From positions 682,001 to 746,000 of the forward strand of contig NZ_UWOS01000001.1 in NCBI RefSeq assembly GCF_900604515.1: DNA of 64,000 nt, read 5' to 3'. The notes beneath the pieces were generated by a model that ran no database searches, had not been told where the DNA came from, and saw only the letters and a list, made by a program, of their open reading frames with translations. Positions 4,228 through 50,034 of this stretch are shown here, in pieces. Positions within the stretch are counted from its first letter, which is position 1, and the number at the start of each line of letters is the position of its first letter. The position numbers and the translations under genes were made by a program. This DNA is from Arcanobacterium ihumii. Lineage in GTDB: Bacteria; Actinomycetota; Actinomycetes; Actinomycetales; Actinomycetaceae.

Positions 4228-4471
4228 GTACCGCTCCTCATTTATCAAAAGCTAATCAAATTCAGATCAGCCTAAGTTCATTATCCAACTACACCCTACA
4301 ACAGGACTGAATTCTTAAAATTGAACGTCTCCATTCTAATGCACATCTGAAGATTTTTTCTTTCCAACAGCGCCACTTAAGAAACAATGCATAACTACCT
4401 CCATGAGATTTTTGAACACCACACTTCGGGCGCACAAGAAAACCACATCTCATTGGTGCCAAAATAGTTCT

Positions 4472-25651: not shown

Positions 25652-26125
25652 GTGGCAGCAACTACAAAGAAACCAGCCTTAAATCCCACCGAAGCTAAGG
25701 AAAGAATTGATTCCTATCTGAAAGGAGTTCAAGACTGGCGGAGCGAAGTACTAGCTCAGGTACGTAGCTGGATCAACGAAGCCGATCCGCAGGTGATTGA
25801 ACAGTGGAAATGGATGGGCAGCCCGGTGTGGGAAAACAATGGTAACTACATCGTTGGAAATATGCACAAGGATAAAGTGAAGCTCACTTTTTCCCACGGC
25901 GCTCACCTTCACGACCCTAATCAGGTATTTAACAATGGACTTGACGGAAAAGAATGGCGCGCGATTGATATTCGCGAGGGAATGAGCCTTAATTCCGCGG
26001 GTCGGAGGTTGGGCGAAGACGAATTTAAAGAGCTCATCCGAGCCGCCGTCGAATACAACCGTGTTGCGGTTGAGCAACGCAAGAAAAAGCGTTCATCAAC
26101 CGCAACACGAGTCAGTGATTCTTAA
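25652..26125 (+). CDS. DUF1801 domain protein
   Basis: 157 aa from GTG 25652, which has GGAG 6 nt upstream. The DUF1801 domain (about 20-140) belongs to the YdhG/YdeI fold. Conserved features are EQWKWMGSPVWENNGNYIVGNMHKDKVKLTFSHGAHL with an aromatic pocket, and IDIREGMSLN. Members are small cytoplasmic proteins of unknown function. The C-terminus is basic (EQRKKKRSS). It converges with, and overlaps by 4 nt, the betaine-binding protein gene. Confidence 0.88.
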   Translation: MAATTKKPALNPTEAKERIDSYLKGVQDWRSEVLAQVRSWINEADPQVIEQWKWMGSPVWENNGNYIVGNMHKDKVKLTFSHGAHLHDPNQVFNNGLDGKEWRAIDIREGMSLNSAGRRLGEDEFKELIRAAVEYNRVAVEQRKKKRSSTATRVSDS

Positions 26126-27018
26126 AGCTTCTTGCTTTCAATCCACTCTTTGGCTATGAGTTTGGCAGATTTCTGATTTTTGGTCGAAGCAATATTCATC
26201 GCAACCAAATCTTGCGGAGCAAGCTTTTGTGAAACCGAATTAAGCACCTCGGCAGCTTCGACGGTTAACGAACCAGCAACAACTGGAATAACCTGCGAAC
26301 TTAGGAACATCGCCTGTGGATCTTTCAGCACAACAAGATCGGGGTTTGCAAGCACGGGATCCGAGGAATAGATATTGGCAACTTGTATTTGGCCGTCCTG
26401 AAGAGCCTTAAGCGTAAGCGAACCACCCGAATCTTCCACCGGCGTGAACTTTACATCTACTCCATAGATATCTTTCAAACCACGTGGACCATACGGCCGA
26501 GTTTCCAATTCCGCGTTACCTCCAAGCACCAGTCCTTTAACTTTCGCTAAATCACCAATGGTCTCAAGACCGTACTTTTCAGCTAGCTCTCGCGTAACCA
26601 CATAAGAATCTTGATCGGTGGCAGGAGCCGGATCTAGTGCGTAGAGACCCTTGGGAAGCTTGCGCTTAAGCTCCTTAACAACGTCGGCCGCCATCGTCGT
26701 CTTTGATTGCGGGTCTAAGTACTGCAAGAAGTTACCTGTGTATTCAGGGAAAACCGTGATGCGTCCAGATTTAATGTCAGGCATATAGACTTCGCGTTGC
26801 CCAATTCGTAGATCGCGCTCAACGTCAAAACCATGCTTTTCGAGTACCTGGGCATAGACTTCAGCGATAATTTCGTTGGAGTAATAGTCCTGAGAGCCGA
26901 CGACGATCGTGCTATTTCCCTTCGCTTCCTTACTTTCTGTACCCAACGGATCACTGCTTCCGCAGGCCGACAAGCCCACCGCCACCATGCCAAGGAGAGC
27001 AACTATTGATTTCTTCAT
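26122..27018 (-). CDS. Substrate-binding lipoprotein of a glycine betaine/choline-type ABC importer (OpuAC/ProX family)
   Basis: 298 aa. The lipoprotein signal ends in the lipobox LSAC with Cys19, so it is anchored outside the membrane. Residues 35-298 are an OpuAC (type 2 periplasmic-binding) domain, with VVGSQDYYSNEIIAEVYAQ and the aromatic/Asp ligand-pocket regions typical of quaternary amine binding (FPEYTGNFLQYL). It lies 27 bp after the permease gene at the end of the ABC gene set (28319-29149 to 26122). Ligand could be glycine betaine, choline, carnitine or a related osmolyte; the exact one cannot be told from sequence. Confidence 0.92.
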   Translation of the reverse strand: MKKSIVALLGMVAVGLSACGSSDPLGTESKEAKGNSTIVVGSQDYYSNEIIAEVYAQVLEKHGFDVERDLRIGQREVYMPDIKSGRITVFPEYTGNFLQYLDPQSKTTMAADVVKELKRKLPKGLYALDPAPATDQDSYVVTRELAEKYGLETIGDLAKVKGLVLGGNAELETRPYGPRGLKDIYGVDVKFTPVEDSGGSLTLKALQDGQIQVANIYSSDPVLANPDLVVLKDPQAMFLSSQVIPVVAGSLTVEAAEVLNSVSQKLAPQDLVAMNIASTKNQKSAKLIAKEWIESKKL

Positions 27019-27045
27019 ACTTTTCCCTTCGGTTGAGTGGCTTTC

Positions 27046-27690
27046 TTATTTTTCATGTGAGGGTCTAGACAGGCGTTGCACGAACGCAAGCGTCATTTCC
27101 AAAATGATTGCAAGTACAATCACCAAGACTGCCGCACCTAACATCTGCGGGTAATCCCTCGTTTTCAATCCAAGGAAAAGGAAGCGACCAAGCCCCAAAT
27201 CCGAGGTGTAAGCCGCAAAGGTAGCAGTGGAAACAACTTGTAAGGTGGCAATGCGGATTCCACCCACCAAAACTGGCATACTGAGAGGAAGTTCCACATT
27301 TTTGATCACTTCCCAACCATTCATTCCGATGGCTTGAGCCGCATCGACAGTTAATTGGTTGACTGATTGAATTCCGGAATATGAAGCTGCGAGCAGTGAC
27401 GGAATCGCCAGAACTACCAGCGCAGCCAGTGGTGGAACCACTCCAATCCCTAAAAACAAACCAAATACTGTGATGATTCCCAGGGTTGGGATTGCGCGCG
27501 TTGCACCTGTGAATGCACCCATAACTTCGGTACCTTTTCGAGTGTGTCCGATCAACACACCGAGCGGAATCGCGATGAGCATCGAGATGATGACCGCTGC
27601 CAATGAGATCGCCAAGTGCTCACCGAGGCGAGAAAAAATTCCATTCTCGCCCAGCCAGTGTTCCCACGTGAATAACCATCCAAGCGTCAT
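27046..27690 (-). CDS. ABC importer permease 2 (OpuBD/ProW type)
   Basis: 214 aa from ATG 27690 with GGAGGAAAG upstream; the ATG overlaps the TGA of the preceding permease gene by 4 nt. Five or six membrane spans, with the EAA loop ASYSGIQSVNQLTVDAAQAIGMNGWEV. It forms the heterodimeric transmembrane channel with the product of 27687-28322, as in OpuB/OpuC systems with two small permeases. Confidence 0.92.
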   Translation of the reverse strand: MTLGWLFTWEHWLGENGIFSRLGEHLAISLAAVIISMLIAIPLGVLIGHTRKGTEVMGAFTGATRAIPTLGIITVFGLFLGIGVVPPLAALVVLAIPSLLAASYSGIQSVNQLTVDAAQAIGMNGWEVIKNVELPLSMPVLVGGIRIATLQVVSTATFAAYTSDLGLGRFLFLGLKTRDYPQMLGAAVLVIVLAIILEMTLAFVQRLSRPSHEK

Positions 27691-28322
27691 AGTACTTTCC
27701 TCCAAGGTGTGAGTACTCGTGCCAAGAACAGCAGTAATACATCAATGAATAACGCGAGCAACATAACGGAGAAAATACCTGCTAGAACCTCTCCCGTAAT
27801 TCCACGCTGAAAACCGTCGGTTAACAAACTTCCCAGACTCGGAATACCAACCAGAGCACCGATAGTTGCCATTGCGATCGTCGAAACAGAAACTACCCGG
27901 ATACCGGCGATGAGCACGGGAATTGCAAGCGGAAGATCAACTTTCCAAAGCATACTGCGGCGTGAATACCCCACCGCCGTCGCCGCCTGACGAACCTGTT
28001 CATCCACAGAAACAAAAGCGTCTCGGACGCTACGCACCATCAATGCGACTCCGTATACGGTGAGCGCAATGTACATCGTGAGGAATGAGCGGAGTTGAAC
28101 CGGTACCAGAGCTGGAATAATAACCAAGAGAGGAAGAGCAGGAATCGCATAGAGCAGAGTCGATGCCGTCAGCAACATTCCTCCGATTTTCGGACGATTA
28201 AAGGCGAATCTTCCGATCGGAAATGCAATAATAACGCTCGCCACAATGGTGGGAATTACGAGTTGGAGATGAATCCACGCCAAATTGACGATCTCCATCC
28301 AATTTGCCATGACCCAAGTCAT
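27687..28322 (-). CDS. ABC importer permease 1 (OpuBB/ProW type)
   Basis: 211 aa from ATG 28322, with GGAGGGG upstream and 4-nt overlap with the ATPase stop. Six membrane spans; the EAA loop is SVRDAFVSVDEQVRQAATAVGYSRRSM. It partners the second permease gene, which starts inside its stop codon. The set ATPase-permease-permease-binding protein is the standard order of quaternary-amine ABC importers. Confidence 0.92.
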   Translation of the reverse strand: MTWVMANWMEIVNLAWIHLQLVIPTIVASVIIAFPIGRFAFNRPKIGGMLLTASTLLYAIPALPLLVIIPALVPVQLRSFLTMYIALTVYGVALMVRSVRDAFVSVDEQVRQAATAVGYSRRSMLWKVDLPLAIPVLIAGIRVVSVSTIAMATIGALVGIPSLGSLLTDGFQRGITGEVLAGIFSVMLLALFIDVLLLFLARVLTPWRKVL

Positions 28323-29149
28323 GAGCACCCCTCCGAAACTTGCACCGTTTCTGCTGACGACGCCAGAGCAGGAGTTACGCTTTCACTTTTGGATTCATTG
28401 CATGGTTCGTATCGACGCGCCCGGATAAACTTCTCAACAAATTCGCTACCAGGATTTTTAAGGATTTCCTCCGGGGCACCTTCCCTTTCGATTCGCGCAC
28501 CTTCGCGAAGTATCACGACTCGATTACCTAGCAGGAATGCCTCATCGATATCGTGCGTTACGAAAATCATCGTCTTGCCTAGCTCGGCGTGTAGCCTCAG
28601 TACCTCTTCTTGTAGTTCGCGACGCACGATAGGGTCAAGCGCTCCGAAAGGTTCGTCCATGAGGAGCACACCAGGTTCGGCAGCCAAGGCGCGAGCGACG
28701 CCTACACGCTGTTGTTGTCCGCCAGAAAGCTCTGCGGGGAAACGTTTAGCAAGATCCGCGTCGAGTCCTACACGTTCAAGAAGTTCGTAAATTTTATCTT
28801 GGAAGTTTTTGAGCTTTACACCTTCGAGAAGAGGTACAGTAGCAATATTTTCTGCAACCGTTCGATGGGGAAGCAATCCTCCATTTTGAAGCACATATCC
28901 AATTGAGCGACGCAACTTCACAGGGTCTTCGTCGGCAACATCTTGTCCATTGAGGAGAACTCTTCCGGAGGTTGGCTCAACCATTCGGTTAACCATCCGG
29001 AGCAGGGTTGTTTTGCCACAACCTGATGATCCAACCATCGCTACCGAGGTTCCATGTGGAACAGTTAAAGAAAAGTCCTCAACCGCCACATGTTCAACCC
29101 CCTGTTTGGAACTCGTGAATACTTTACGAACGTTTTCAAATTGGATCAT
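28319..29149 (-). CDS. ABC importer ATP-binding protein (OpuBA/ProV type)
   Basis: 276 aa. Walker A GSSGCGKTTLL, Q-loop, signature LSGGQQQRVGVARALA, Walker B VLLMDEPFGALDP and the H-loop FVTHDIDEA. The first gene of a four-gene importer operon on the minus strand, ending overlap-coupled to the permease. It lacks the C-terminal CBS domains found in ionic-strength-sensing OpuA/ProV, so regulation by salt must act elsewhere. The C-terminal 30 residues are Ser/Glu rich. Confidence 0.93.
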   Translation of the reverse strand: MIQFENVRKVFTSSKQGVEHVAVEDFSLTVPHGTSVAMVGSSGCGKTTLLRMVNRMVEPTSGRVLLNGQDVADEDPVKLRRSIGYVLQNGGLLPHRTVAENIATVPLLEGVKLKNFQDKIYELLERVGLDADLAKRFPAELSGGQQQRVGVARALAAEPGVLLMDEPFGALDPIVRRELQEEVLRLHAELGKTMIFVTHDIDEAFLLGNRVVILREGARIEREGAPEEILKNPGSEFVEKFIRARRYEPCNESKSESVTPALASSAETVQVSEGCS

Positions 29150-29407
29150 GGAGTCAAGCCTATATCTAGGTACCTGCCAAAATTGGAAACTTCGTTGGCA
29201 TTACGCTGTTGGCTGGTTTTACTAAAAAAGTTACCCAAGTACCGATATGTTGAGCCTTCAAACCACGGCTTTAGCAAATATTATTCTGCATGCCAGATTT
29301 AACGAGATGCAGGGTAGATCACGAAAATCTACCACCTGTTGATTTTTAATTGAAAACTTGCTTACTCTTTTTGGGTCGGCATAAAGCCAATTAACTTAGG
29401 AGACTCC

Positions 29408-29503
29408 ATGCGAGGCATTATCGCTCAGAACGCACTTTCAAACCGCAGCGTTCGCGGTTTGTGTTGCGTTGATTTGAGCCGTGCCTGCTGTTGTTGTTGC
29501 TGA
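29408..29503 (+). CDS. Cysteine-rich leader peptide (putative cysteine attenuator uORF)
   Basis: A 31-codon ORF, ATG 29408 to TGA 29501-29503, with AGGAG 5 nt upstream, too short for standard gene calling. It contains a Cys-Cys pair at codons 19-20 and ends ACCCCC, that is five consecutive TGT/TGC codons just before the stop. It also has the VDLSR stretch seen in actinobacterial sulfur-gene leader peptides. Seven of 31 residues are Cys. It lies 246 bp upstream of a DAACS symporter on the same strand. Stalling at the cysteine codons when Cys-tRNA is scarce would expose downstream RNA structure: hairpin GCTTGCG/CGCAAGC begins at 29509, six bases past the stop. Function is inferred. Confidence 0.72.
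   Translation: MRGIIAQNALSNRSVRGLCCVDLSRACCCCC
29439..29461 (+). promoter_or_regulatory. RNA hairpin within the leader ORF
   Basis: Arms caaaccgc (29439-29446) and gcggtttg (29454-29461) around agcgttc, extendable by aacgca/tgcgtt (29429-29434 with 29465-29470). It overlaps the first Cys codon pair, so a ribosome there would melt it. Confidence 0.5.
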
Positions 29504-29508
29504 TTTAA

Positions 29509-29526
29509 GCTTGCGCGTTCGCAAGC
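29509..29526 (+). promoter_or_regulatory. RNA hairpin just after the cysteine run
   Basis: Arms gcttgcg and cgcaagc with loop cgtt, starting 6 nt past the leader stop. A ribosome stalled on the Cys codons would cover its 5' arm. No T-run follows, so it would act by translation or alternate pairing rather than as a simple terminator. Confidence 0.5.
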
Positions 29527-29749
29527 ACGCACACATCTAAAAGCCATATGAGTCGGTTTTCAACGTCTAAAATCTTGTAAACCCAAGCTAAAACTTTGGC
29601 TATTACCTTAGATGGAAACCAAAGATCAATCCTTTAAGCTCTCACCGTTTATTTTACGGTCTCATCACTACACTTCTCATTGAATATTTAATTTTATTTT
29701 TATGATCCCCTTATTCCTACACCGCATAAAACCCGAAAGGACCACCAAC

Positions 29750-31201
29750 GTGCCAAGCACAGATAATTCCAAAAAACCACGAAAGATACTCCCATCGTTC
29801 GGAGTTCAGATCCTGCTCGGTCTCATTATTGGCGGAGTACTGGGATGGATTGCTCTTCGAATGGGTAATCCTTCTCCTGACACCCCAAACTGGCTCACTT
29901 TCACGTTGAGCACCATTGGATCCTCGTTTGTTACGCTCCTTAAAGCAGTTGTACCGGTACTAGTCTTCACCGCGATTGTCGCTTCAATTGCAAACCTCCG
30001 TGGCGTTGCCAATGGAGCACGGCTTGCAATAAAAACTCTCATTTGGTTCGCCATCACAGCTTTCATTGCCGTATCGATCGGAATCGCGATAGGACTAATC
30101 ACTAATCCCGGAAGAAATACCTCAATTTCTTCGCAAGCAGTTTCAAAGCCCTCCCACACCGGCGGTTGGCTCGATTTCCTCCTTGGAATCATTCCATCAA
30201 ACTTCTTGGGAATAAAGGGAGCCAGCTCAGTTGATACAAGCACCCAGGCGATCACAACCACAATCGACTTCAATATTCTTCAAATCATCGTTATTGCACT
30301 AGTGGTCGGAGCCGCAGCGCTTCGCCAAGGTAAGAAAGCCGAGCAGTTCCTTAGTTTCAACGCCTCACTCCTATCGGTCGTTCAGCGAATCCTATGGTGG
30401 ATTATTTTGCTCGCTCCAATCGGAACAATCGGTTTGGTTGGCCGCGCCGTTGCTACCTACGGCTGGAGCTCAATTGCACAGCTCGGCGTCTTCGCTCTCT
30501 CGATCTATCTAGGCTTGGCGATCGTGCTCTTCATCGTGTACCCGATCATTTTGCGCACTAACGGTCTTGGAATCGGTCACTACTTCCGCGGTGCGTGGCC
30601 AGCGATTCAATTAGCATTCGTCTCTCGCTCATCAATCGGCACTTTGCCCGTCACCCAAGCAGTCACTGTAAAGAATCTCGGTGTTCCACAGAGCTACGCA
30701 TCCTTCGCAGTCCCACTGGCCTCCACCACGAAAATGGATGGTTGTGCATCAATCTATCCAGCCATTTCCGCAATCTTTGTTGCACAGTTCTTCCACGTCA
30801 CCCTGAACCCAGTGGACTACGTCCTGATCGCGTTCGTCTCCGTTGTCGGTTCTGCTGCCACCGCGGGTCTCACCGGCGCAACTGTGATGCTCACACTCAC
30901 CCTCTCCACTCTCGGACTTCCACTCGAAGGCGTCGGTCTCCTACTGGCGATCGATCCGATCCTCGACATGGGACGTACCGCGGTTAACGTAGCAGGTCAG
31001 GTAGTAGTCACAGCCGTCGTCGCCAAGCGTGAAGGCATCATCGATCTTGAGAAGTACAACTCGGCTAACGCGGATGATCTTTTCGAAGATGATGAAGACG
31101 ACGTTTCACCGGTCGCTTCGGAAGCAACCATTGCAGCGGAACTTGGATCCGAGCGCAAGACTGAAGCTGAGATTCGACCTTCTCAACCGATGAACAATTA
31201 A
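29750..31201 (+). CDS. Dicarboxylate/amino acid:cation symporter (DAACS), probable cystine/cysteine uptake
   Basis: 483 aa from GTG 29750 with AAAGGA 8 nt upstream; the frame is open 16 codons earlier but lacks a ribosome site there. Eight membrane spans and two re-entrant loops of the GltP/TcyP fold. The conserved SSIGTLPVT (serine-rich HP1) and TKMDGCASIYPAI, plus AIDPILDMGRTAVNVAGQ (HP2/TM8) motifs are present. The substrate-specifying Arg/Asp positions resemble neutral amino-acid or cystine members more than C4-dicarboxylate carriers, but this needs testing. The cysteine-rich leader peptide upstream supports cystine or cysteine. The C-terminal tail (DLFEDDEDDVSP) is acidic. Confidence 0.85.
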   Translation: MPSTDNSKKPRKILPSFGVQILLGLIIGGVLGWIALRMGNPSPDTPNWLTFTLSTIGSSFVTLLKAVVPVLVFTAIVASIANLRGVANGARLAIKTLIWFAITAFIAVSIGIAIGLITNPGRNTSISSQAVSKPSHTGGWLDFLLGIIPSNFLGIKGASSVDTSTQAITTTIDFNILQIIVIALVVGAAALRQGKKAEQFLSFNASLLSVVQRILWWIILLAPIGTIGLVGRAVATYGWSSIAQLGVFALSIYLGLAIVLFIVYPIILRTNGLGIGHYFRGAWPAIQLAFVSRSSIGTLPVTQAVTVKNLGVPQSYASFAVPLASTTKMDGCASIYPAISAIFVAQFFHVTLNPVDYVLIAFVSVVGSAATAGLTGATVMLTLTLSTLGLPLEGVGLLLAIDPILDMGRTAVNVAGQVVVTAVVAKREGIIDLEKYNSANADDLFEDDEDDVSPVASEATIAAELGSERKTEAEIRPSQPMNN

Positions 31202-48550: not shown

Positions 48551-48906
48551 TTCCCTCCCATGTTCTAACAGTTGCTACGTGAGCGGAGACTGCACGCCTT
48601 CCCAAAAGTATCTCGCAAAAACACCGGAAAATGCGACATCTTCCTATTTCTTCAAACACTAATGCCCTTCGCAACATCGCCCTGCATCAAACAAAGCGAA
48701 GCATTGGGCTTTTACTCGAAGCAAAAGCTGGCATAATCACTTACATTTTTTACATTCGTGAAGAGCAGTTTTGTATTTTTCCCCACAATTGCCTCGAATT
48801 GTGTAAGAATGAAGCCTGTGGGTCTTTTCGACTCACAGTGTTAGGCAACCGCCTCGCACCTTTCACTCGGATCGTCCGGCACGTACCTGCCGGTGAAGGG
48901 AATATC
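48551..48906. promoter_or_regulatory. Divergent intergenic region between kinase and MsiK genes, with an inverted repeat
   Basis: 356 bp. It must hold the promoters of both divergent genes. The only structured signal is the inverted repeat cacaatt-gcctcg-aattgtg at 48784-48803, a 20-bp site with 7-bp arms, roughly 105 bp upstream of msiK, possibly an operator. Otherwise nothing recognised. Confidence 0.45.
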
Positions 48907-50034
48907 ATGGCTACAGTTACGTTTGAAAATGCCACGCGTATTTACCCGGGTTCAGAGAAACCCGCAGTTGATTCATTAAACCTCGAGATCAAAGACGGAG
49001 AATTCCTAGTTCTCGTTGGACCATCGGGTTGTGGAAAATCCACCTCCCTTCGTATGCTTGCAGGTCTCGAAGATGTCAACACTGGACGTATTTACATTGG
49101 TGACCGCGACGTCACCGACGTAACGCCAAAGGATCGCGATATCGCAATGGTTTTCCAAAACTACGCGCTCTACCCGCACATGACTGTCGCCGACAACATG
49201 GGATTCGCACTCAAAATTGCAGGCGTTGACAAGGACACCATTCGCGCGCGCGTTGAAGAAGCAGCGAAGATCCTTGATCTAACCGAATACCTGGACCGCA
49301 AGCCAAAAGCGCTCTCGGGCGGTCAGCGTCAGCGTGTTGCTATGGGTCGTGCCATCGTTCGTAAACCCCAGGTCTTCTTGATGGACGAACCGCTCTCCAA
49401 CTTAGATGCTAAGCTCCGTGTTCAGACTCGTACCCAGATTGCTTCACTTCAGCGTGAGCTGGGCGTTACCACCGTTTACGTTACCCACGATCAGACCGAA
49501 GCTCTTACCATGGGCGACCGCATCGCCGTCCTCAAAGATGGAATCCTTCAGCAGGTAGCAAGTCCAGATGAAATGTTTGCCCGCCCAGCTAATGCTTTCG
49601 TCGCAGGTTTTATTGGTTCTCCTGCCATGAACCTTGGCGAATGGCGCGTTGAGGGAACGAACGCTGTATTCGGCGATGCAAAGCTCCCCCTGCCAGCACC
49701 TATCCGCTCGGCGCTCACGGCGGAAAACGCGAAGGCTGTAACAATCGGTATGCGTCCAGAAGCGTTCGAAGTTGTTGGAACGGTAACGGAGAATTCAATT
49801 CCGCTTGAAGTCACCTTCGTCGAGCACCTCGGTTCAGATGCTTACATCTACGGAACCGTGGTCGGAGCAAGAAATGAAACTACCCGTTTCGGTTCTGGAG
49901 ACAACTCCGAATCCATGACCGTTCGCGTCACTCCAGAGAACGTTCCAGCCTCAGGTGATGTCATTTATATTGTTCCACGTGAAACGCATATCCACTACTT
50001 CTCAGCAACGACCGGAAACCGTATCGGAAACTGA
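48907..50034 (+). CDS. ugpC: Sugar ABC transporter ATPase (MsiK/UgpC family)
   Basis: 375 aa from ATG 48907 (MATVTFENATRIYPGSEKP), the family start; a longer open frame from 48631 lacks support. Walker A GPSGCGKSTSLRMLAG, Q-loop VFQNYALYPHM, signature LSGGQRQRVAMGRAIV, Walker B VFLMDEPLSNLDAKL and H-loop YVTHDQTEAL. A TOBE domain occupies about 240-375. MsiK proteins power several separate sugar importers in actinobacteria because the importer operons often lack their own ATPase. None of those permeases is in the window. Followed by a strong terminator. Confidence 0.94.
   Translation: MATVTFENATRIYPGSEKPAVDSLNLEIKDGEFLVLVGPSGCGKSTSLRMLAGLEDVNTGRIYIGDRDVTDVTPKDRDIAMVFQNYALYPHMTVADNMGFALKIAGVDKDTIRARVEEAAKILDLTEYLDRKPKALSGGQRQRVAMGRAIVRKPQVFLMDEPLSNLDAKLRVQTRTQIASLQRELGVTTVYVTHDQTEALTMGDRIAVLKDGILQQVASPDEMFARPANAFVAGFIGSPAMNLGEWRVEGTNAVFGDAKLPLPAPIRSALTAENAKAVTIGMRPEAFEVVGTVTENSIPLEVTFVEHLGSDAYIYGTVVGARNETTRFGSGDNSESMTVRVTPENVPASGDVIYIVPRETHIHYFSATTGNRIGN

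Follow-up and report, generated by a model that had tools for sequence, protein, structure and literature searches.

A conserved cysteine-codon leader before a TcyP-like DAACS symporter in Arcanobacterium ihumii: a probable cysteine gauge

In Arcanobacterium ihumii, the gene of a DAACS symporter that resembles the cystine transporter TcyP is preceded by a short ORF ending in a run of Cys codons, and this ORF is probably (we put the chance at about three in four) the cysteine-responsive leader of a cystine or cysteine importer. The window, that is, the whole stretch of DNA analysed, comprises 64,000 nt (assembly GCF_900604515.1, NZ_UWOS01000001.1, 682,001-746,000), and the positions given for the leader and the symporter count from its first letter (Table 1). 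Since many relatives keep a Cys mini-gene at the same place, comparison of the loci makes it very likely that the leader is a cysteine gauge of the kind already known in actinobacteria. The ORF, its positional conservation, the placement of its Cys codons, the preference for UGU in relatives, the composition of the spacer and the resemblance of the symporter to TcyP were all computed. Regulation by Cys leaders is of a known kind; what is new, as far as the papers searched go, is the target together with the preference for UGU and the bias of the spacer. In the open-licence literature, the matches listed contained no report of a DAACS gene preceded by a Cys leader.

Table 1. Features of the leader-symporter locus and of the cysK leader
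Feature	Position	Strand	Details
Leader ORF MRGIIAQNALSNRSVRGLCCVDLSRACCCCC	29408-29503	+	ATG 29408, 31 sense codons, TGA 29501-29503; positional conservation
Shine-Dalgarno AGGAG of the leader ORF	29398-29402	+	sequence; five bases 5' of the ATG; same region in both congeners
Leader Cys codons 19-20	29462-29467	+	sequence
Leader Cys codons 27-31	29486-29500	+	sequence; five consecutive, then TGA
Hairpin inside the leader	29439-29461	+	8 bp, -11.4 kcal/mol, z -1.87; ends at the first Cys codon
Hairpin past the leader stop	29509-29526	+	7 bp, -10.7 kcal/mol, z -2.10
16-nt element GCG[TC]T[TC]GCAAGC[AG]CG[CT]	29515-29530 (L002:1253-1268)	+	in three congeners, by eye
Leader-symporter spacer, candidate Rho-loading region	29504-29749	+	C-rich, G-poor; log2 C/G 0.98 (29504-29735); role inferred
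Symporter Shine-Dalgarno AAAGGA	29736-29741	+	sequence
DAACS (SDF, PF00375) symporter, TcyP-like	29750-31201	+	GTG start; PF00375 301 bits
cysK leader, Cys codons, then 11-bp hairpin	L220:1501-1578 = G000:C3:466924-467001		own genome; also L218-L247

The leader ORF and its conservation

The original prediction described a 31-codon ORF with a strong ribosome site, five terminal Cys codons and two more Cys, all of which were confirmed in the sequence; the proposed distance to the symporter is also correct, with 246 nt between the leader TGA and the GTG at 29750, itself led by a Shine-Dalgarno (SD) site. The leader sequence alone proves little, since UGY runs occur in this genome at the level of chance: over its 2.0 Mb, the pattern TGYTGYTGYTGY is found 17 times, as against 17 times in the reversed control, and the looser pattern TGYTGYTGYN0-9TRA has 72 genome sites versus 74 in the control. 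Among the 17 TGYTGYTGYTGY sites, only the run of the leader forms the very end of its own frame; at 6 others the stop comes 1-4 codons further on, and these stop-to-stop frames, unscored for start and SD, span 5-21 codons. What goes beyond chance in the leader is its conservation, not the sequence itself. A weak promoter-like site lies at 29257-29284 on the same strand as the leader (1.2 are expected over both strands), and the good SD of the ORF argues for a 5' leader rather than a leaderless start. Rfam detected nothing close to the leader; elsewhere in the window, an msiK RNA (RF01747, 61.5 bits) lies at 48851-48908 (+). Adjoining the leader are divergent ABC transporter genes (26122-29149, -) for a proV-like ATPase and an OsmF-like binding protein, both named from NCBIfam matches below cut-off, with two permease-like ORFs between them.

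Orthologues of the symporter, collected at E<=1e-100, are found in 34 of 213 family genomes; within the genus, 3 of 10 genomes have the symporter at this threshold and it is absent from 7. Both congeners with the symporter (81-83% identical) have an SD-led leader at the same place, ending CCCMA, from which the tail of the window leader differs by a small indel. A search for the same uORF before DAACS genes in related Actinomycetaceae had been proposed as a check, and its outcome is favourable: SD-led frames, 15-50 codons long and carrying at least two Cys among the last twelve residues, precede 23 of 30 family orthologues, whereas the reverse strand has such a frame at 2 of 30 and shuffles at 1.1 (30 of the 34 orthologues were used, the loci of four lower-identity ones being left out). 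When applied to 80 named loci, this strict two-Cys rule retains 6 (3.0 are expected from shuffles, and the reverse strand gives 4), and of 9 order-level loci it retains 1; few distant loci pass because the canonical leader often carries a single Cys. More distant orthologues have leaders of the form LTxRxxVDLxRxASALC(C). Counted by eye, 26 of the 80 named loci have this motif and two have poly-Cys or Met-Cys leaders, four loci with Cys runs but lacking the DL motif (L071, L072, L104 and L119) having been dismissed, also by eye. All 28 leader-bearing loci fall among the 55 actinobacterial ones, canonical leaders preceding the orthologues of Cellulomonas, Nocardioides, Georgenia and others, and none of the 25 proteobacterial orthologues has a leader. 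A recognised SD is absent in 10 of the 26 motif loci, Nocardioides included. At seven loci (L002, L003, L007, L009, L012, L136 and L142), Met stands inside or beside the Cys run, as in CCCMA, MCCCMR, MCMCMR, ACMCMMRC and MCRCMPM, which suggests that joint Cys/Met sensing may occur in some species.

Many of the relatives' leaders match the NCBIfam models of Cys-rich leader peptides: among the 36 aligned leaders (of 48) that were submitted, NF042934 (cis_reg_atten, 'putative leader peptide') matched 19, NF042936 (Ms4527A) 12 and NF042933 (Ms5788A) 11 at E<=1, and the leader of L008 reached 28.6 bits, above the NF042934 cut-off of 27. The poly-Cys leader of the window, in contrast, gave 0 matches to the family models and did not reach this cut-off, and the leader of the congener L002 gave none either; the window leader is therefore related to them in its position and its logic rather than through a model match. 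Across the whole genome of A. ihumii, NF042934 found nothing above its cut-off (best 11.2 bits), and a threshold loose enough to admit such scores gives matches in 10 of 14 control genomes as well.

The choice of Cys codon in these leaders is unusual. In the 33 leader loci with GC3 >0.85 (8 of 41 loci not over this value were left out), leader Cys codons are UGU 65 times and UGC 17 times, whereas among their remaining two-fold NNY codons 5 have T and 112 have C at the end, both counts being uncorrected for kinship. The symporter genes of these loci, with about one Cys per gene, use UGU 0 and UGC 33 times. As UGU dominates the leaders yet is absent from the symporter genes, the control codon is the one seldom used. 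In the same genomes, a further seven leaders of the NF042934 type, which precede other genes, have UGU 7 and UGC 1. With the GC content of the window at about 52%, its leader has UGU 4 and UGC 3 and is uninformative on the preference, which may come from an RNA-level need for UGU.

Conservation is less evident at the level of the peptide and of the RNA. Leaders of two genera, compared in 17 pairs, have 31 synonymous and 83 nonsynonymous codon differences (random fraction 0.24); with no synonymous excess, the whole peptide is not visibly constrained. The two hairpins that had been predicted at the Cys runs are both present, but each beats shuffles only modestly, and for the two taken together with the Cys run (29436-29532) z is -0.52. 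The CCGC/GCGG core and 7-nt loop of the first hairpin are identical in three congeners and show no covariation, as judged by eye, while the 5' arm of the second, also compared by eye, is not common to the congeners. Directly past the leader stop, the 16-nt element has one compensatory U-A/C-G change, seen by eye. For the core and the element, three species are too small a set to judge.

It might be argued from these data that the uORF of the window represents a frame that has decayed or arisen by chance, with functional leaders confined to relatives. The missing model match, the chance-level number of UGY runs in the genome, the tail indel and the lack of peptide-wide constraint in two other genera would all agree with this. 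However, the window leader retains its SD and start, lies at the same position and keeps the Cys run, and with 7 Cys codons it has more than most relatives, so that we consider a chance frame very improbable.

The symporter and its probable substrate

The symporter frame can be extended to an ATG at 29702, at which no ribosome site is visible. In BLASTP, it scores higher with E. coli TcyP (160 bits, 31%) than with GltP (138 bits, 27%) or DctA (126 bits, 26%). TcyP (YdjN, b1729) is a DAACS protein like the symporter, and an alignment with this one TcyP shows common motifs in HP1 (SRSS), TM7 (GCAxxYPA, one residue longer) and TM8 (DMGRTAxNV), although the two proteins are distant, with TTKMDG in TM7 of the symporter against TIGQNG. 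In the phylogenetic tree, TcyP joins SstT via long branches (support 82/62) and the symporter clade is not joined to TcyP. The available text of a previous study (PMC4383340) presents YdjN of E. coli as a symporter of L-cystine. The second DAACS gene of the genome has DctA-like motifs and no Cys uORF, and no SD-led Cys uORF was found before 8 other DAACS paralogues. Annotated records of the symporter clade carry generic names only, and the neighbours of three plasmid-borne orthologues gave no hint of the substrate.

Sulfur metabolism in the genus is relevant to the substrate. PAPS/APS reductase (PF01507) has no match in the 10 genus genomes and matches in 14 of 14 control genomes, while cysE and PALP enzymes are present in 10/10. 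The genus can thus complete cysteine synthesis and gives no sign of sulfate reduction by PF01507, which makes the import of reduced sulfur plausible. Cystine or cysteine import by the symporter, as originally predicted, fits both the resemblance to TcyP and the absent reductase match, and is our best guess.

There is a rather small chance that the leader senses cysteine while the symporter carries another amino acid or a dicarboxylate, aspartate for example, as a carbon skeleton or otherwise. Four TM8 residues known from aspartate/glutamate transporters (Asp, Arg, Thr and Asn), which have roles in GltPh, are kept in the symporter, and its best PDB match, 9bgz, binds aspartate and is given as a reconstructed ancestor in the accessible part of its report (PMC12668577). 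Nevertheless, the cystine transporter TcyP has the same DMGRT in TM8 together with the GCAxxYPA of TM7, which is missing from GltP and DctA, and it outranks both in the BLASTP comparison.

The spacer and the mode of control

We propose a ribosome-mediated cysteine attenuator that acts in cis on the TcyP-like symporter and has the uORF as its sensor, a scheme in which we infer translation of the leader, stalling, the part of Rho and the substrate. Ribosomes would start at the SD-led ATG of the leader. When Cys-tRNA is plentiful, they would pass the Cys codons, terminate and depart, leaving the C-rich spacer naked, and this would lead to a shut-off before the symporter, most likely by Rho-dependent termination of transcription. 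When Cys-tRNA is scarce, a ribosome would be held on the terminal Cys codons and cover the start of the spacer, so that the importer would be expressed and cystine or cysteine taken up.

The composition of the spacer is in line with such a scheme. C exceeds G between leader and symporter in 41 of 41 leader loci, with a mean log2(C/G) of 0.71, as compared with 0.16 in 38 leader-lacking actinobacterial upstream regions and 0.10 in 25 proteobacterial ones; the difference between leader and leader-lacking actinobacterial loci has a Mann-Whitney value of about 1e-10, uncorrected for kinship. This set excludes 7 of 48 leader loci, two of them doubtful (L117 and L122) and five taken as duplicates (L052, L053, L055, L064 and L121), and 8 loci with the leader motif but no SD were removed from the controls. 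In the 150 nt that follow 12 model-fetched leaders, C also exceeds G in 12/12 (ratio 1.38-2.36). The upstream regions of the window, 21 in number and including that of the symporter as measured from its longer frame, have a mean log2(C/G) of -0.01; the 139-nt region upstream of the + strand ORF at 4403 has 1.17, above the 0.98 of the leader spacer. An excess of C over G may possibly mark any unstructured 5'UTR.

The search for intrinsic terminators returned one site in the window, located within the leader ORF, where 1.0 is expected by chance, and a terminator-like site at 1 of the 41 leader loci. Masking of the symporter SD was not apparent: accessibility was 0.38 versus 0.43 in shuffles over 38 loci (p 0.12; 3 of 41 loci lacking a clear start were omitted) and 0.35 versus 0.39 in the window. 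The lack of intrinsic terminators and of an SD-masking signal favours Rho-dependent attenuation, and a rho gene is present in the genome; we nevertheless hold the Rho step tentatively, at somewhat less than even odds. Rho has been offered for mycobacterial cys leaders on the basis of weak, unconserved polyY motifs, with the mechanism left open in the available text of that work (PMC1262725).

Control could instead be exerted on translation, the same Cys leader being used and the stalled ribosome freeing the ribosome site of the symporter. Such translation attenuation is what the accessible portion of a study of M. smegmatis cys genes reports instead of Rho (PMC13236596). When the window sequence is folded from the leader stop onward, UCCUUU (about 29634) pairs with the AAAGGA of the symporter; at individual loci, L003 and L102 for instance, the SD is folded away, and spacers as a whole fold more stably than shuffles do (mean z -1.73). 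However, the UCCUUU-AAAGGA pairing is not formed in longer window folds, and the accessibility values above give no shared signal of SD masking; translation-level control appears unlikely to us, albeit with a real chance of being right. The fold that follows the leader in two genera (6 loci each) gave no convincing shared structure, with both-side changes in 2 of 21 and 6 of 10 pairs, many broken cells and a poor alignment.

Cysteine leaders beyond the symporter

Sequence comparison indicates that Cys leaders are at work in this genome beyond the symporter. The cysK operon of A. ihumii has an SD-led Cys leader ending LCTCR, as have all 8 congeners examined, its own genome being one of the 8, and an 11-bp hairpin starts on the stop codon of this leader. 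Over 8 genomes, 92% of the cells of this hairpin pair, against 32-49% in slid controls, and 6 pairs are changed on both sides. A competing pairing with the Cys codons of the cysK leader was tried and showed no covariation. A covariance model of the hairpin (R1) has matches in 98 of 213 family genomes, 18 of 36 genera and 8 of 10 genus genomes, with a single match per genome in all but one of the 98. All 30 fetched matches precede cysK, and all 30 come after a frame that has Cys among its 14 C-terminal residues when the Cys-richest frame is taken. In the alignment of these 30 loci, which was fitted to the model, 94.8% of cells pair, and both-side changes affect 7 pairs and 24 cells as compared with 3.7 and 9.0 in shuffles. 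Rfam had no match at the hairpin in the four loci searched, and the cysK leader hairpin looks like an undescribed cis-regulatory RNA. The hairpin was not recovered at the symporter loci: run at E<=1 against the window and 20 DAACS loci, the model gave just one match, in L004 (11 bits, E 0.97).

Other leaders of the NF042934 type, several of them below the cut-off, occur in relatives (L197, L198, L203, L200, L201, L202 and L204). Their targets are two PF04143 sulfur transporters (Sulf_transp), a TauE permease, a 2OG oxygenase and, in three cases, dehydrogenases of the zinc type, of which two were Pfam-checked (L208 and L209 of 14 loci were left out). The idea that a Cys leader here controls a transporter is upheld by its conservation before the symporter, but the case is not unique, as leaders of the same type precede other sulfur transporters.

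Cysteine leaders as such have been described before. Seliverstov et al. (2005) predicted Cys leader peptides with Cys runs near the stop and no terminator, and their targets, as given in the available text, comprise the cys operons of Mycobacterium and P. acnes together with B. longum cbs, with no symporter among them (PMC1262725). The mycobacterial polycysteine short ORFs of Canestrari et al. (2020) are Cys-rich like the window leader, and reportedly respond to Cys; they are leaderless according to the title of that paper and precede operons of cysteine genes, whereas the leader described here is SD-led, is followed by a 246-nt spacer and has a DAACS symporter as target. Beyond these precedents, a broader picture might be drawn, in which control is Rho-based and needs no dedicated hairpin, a rare UGU sensor adjacent to the stop is combined with a selected C-rich spacer, a family-wide cysteine regulon reaches TcyP-like symporters and the cysK copy has gained a hairpin on its stop codon; as a whole, it is speculative and the odds are against it.

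To conclude, the leader offers a testable substrate, cystine or cysteine, for a DAACS clade that has carried generic names, and it extends the actinobacterial Cys-leader regulon to this clade of symporters. UGU control codons and a C-rich spacer are hallmarks that could settle how such leaders work. In a genus with no detectable PAPS/APS reductase, such an importer could be a main entry point of sulfur.
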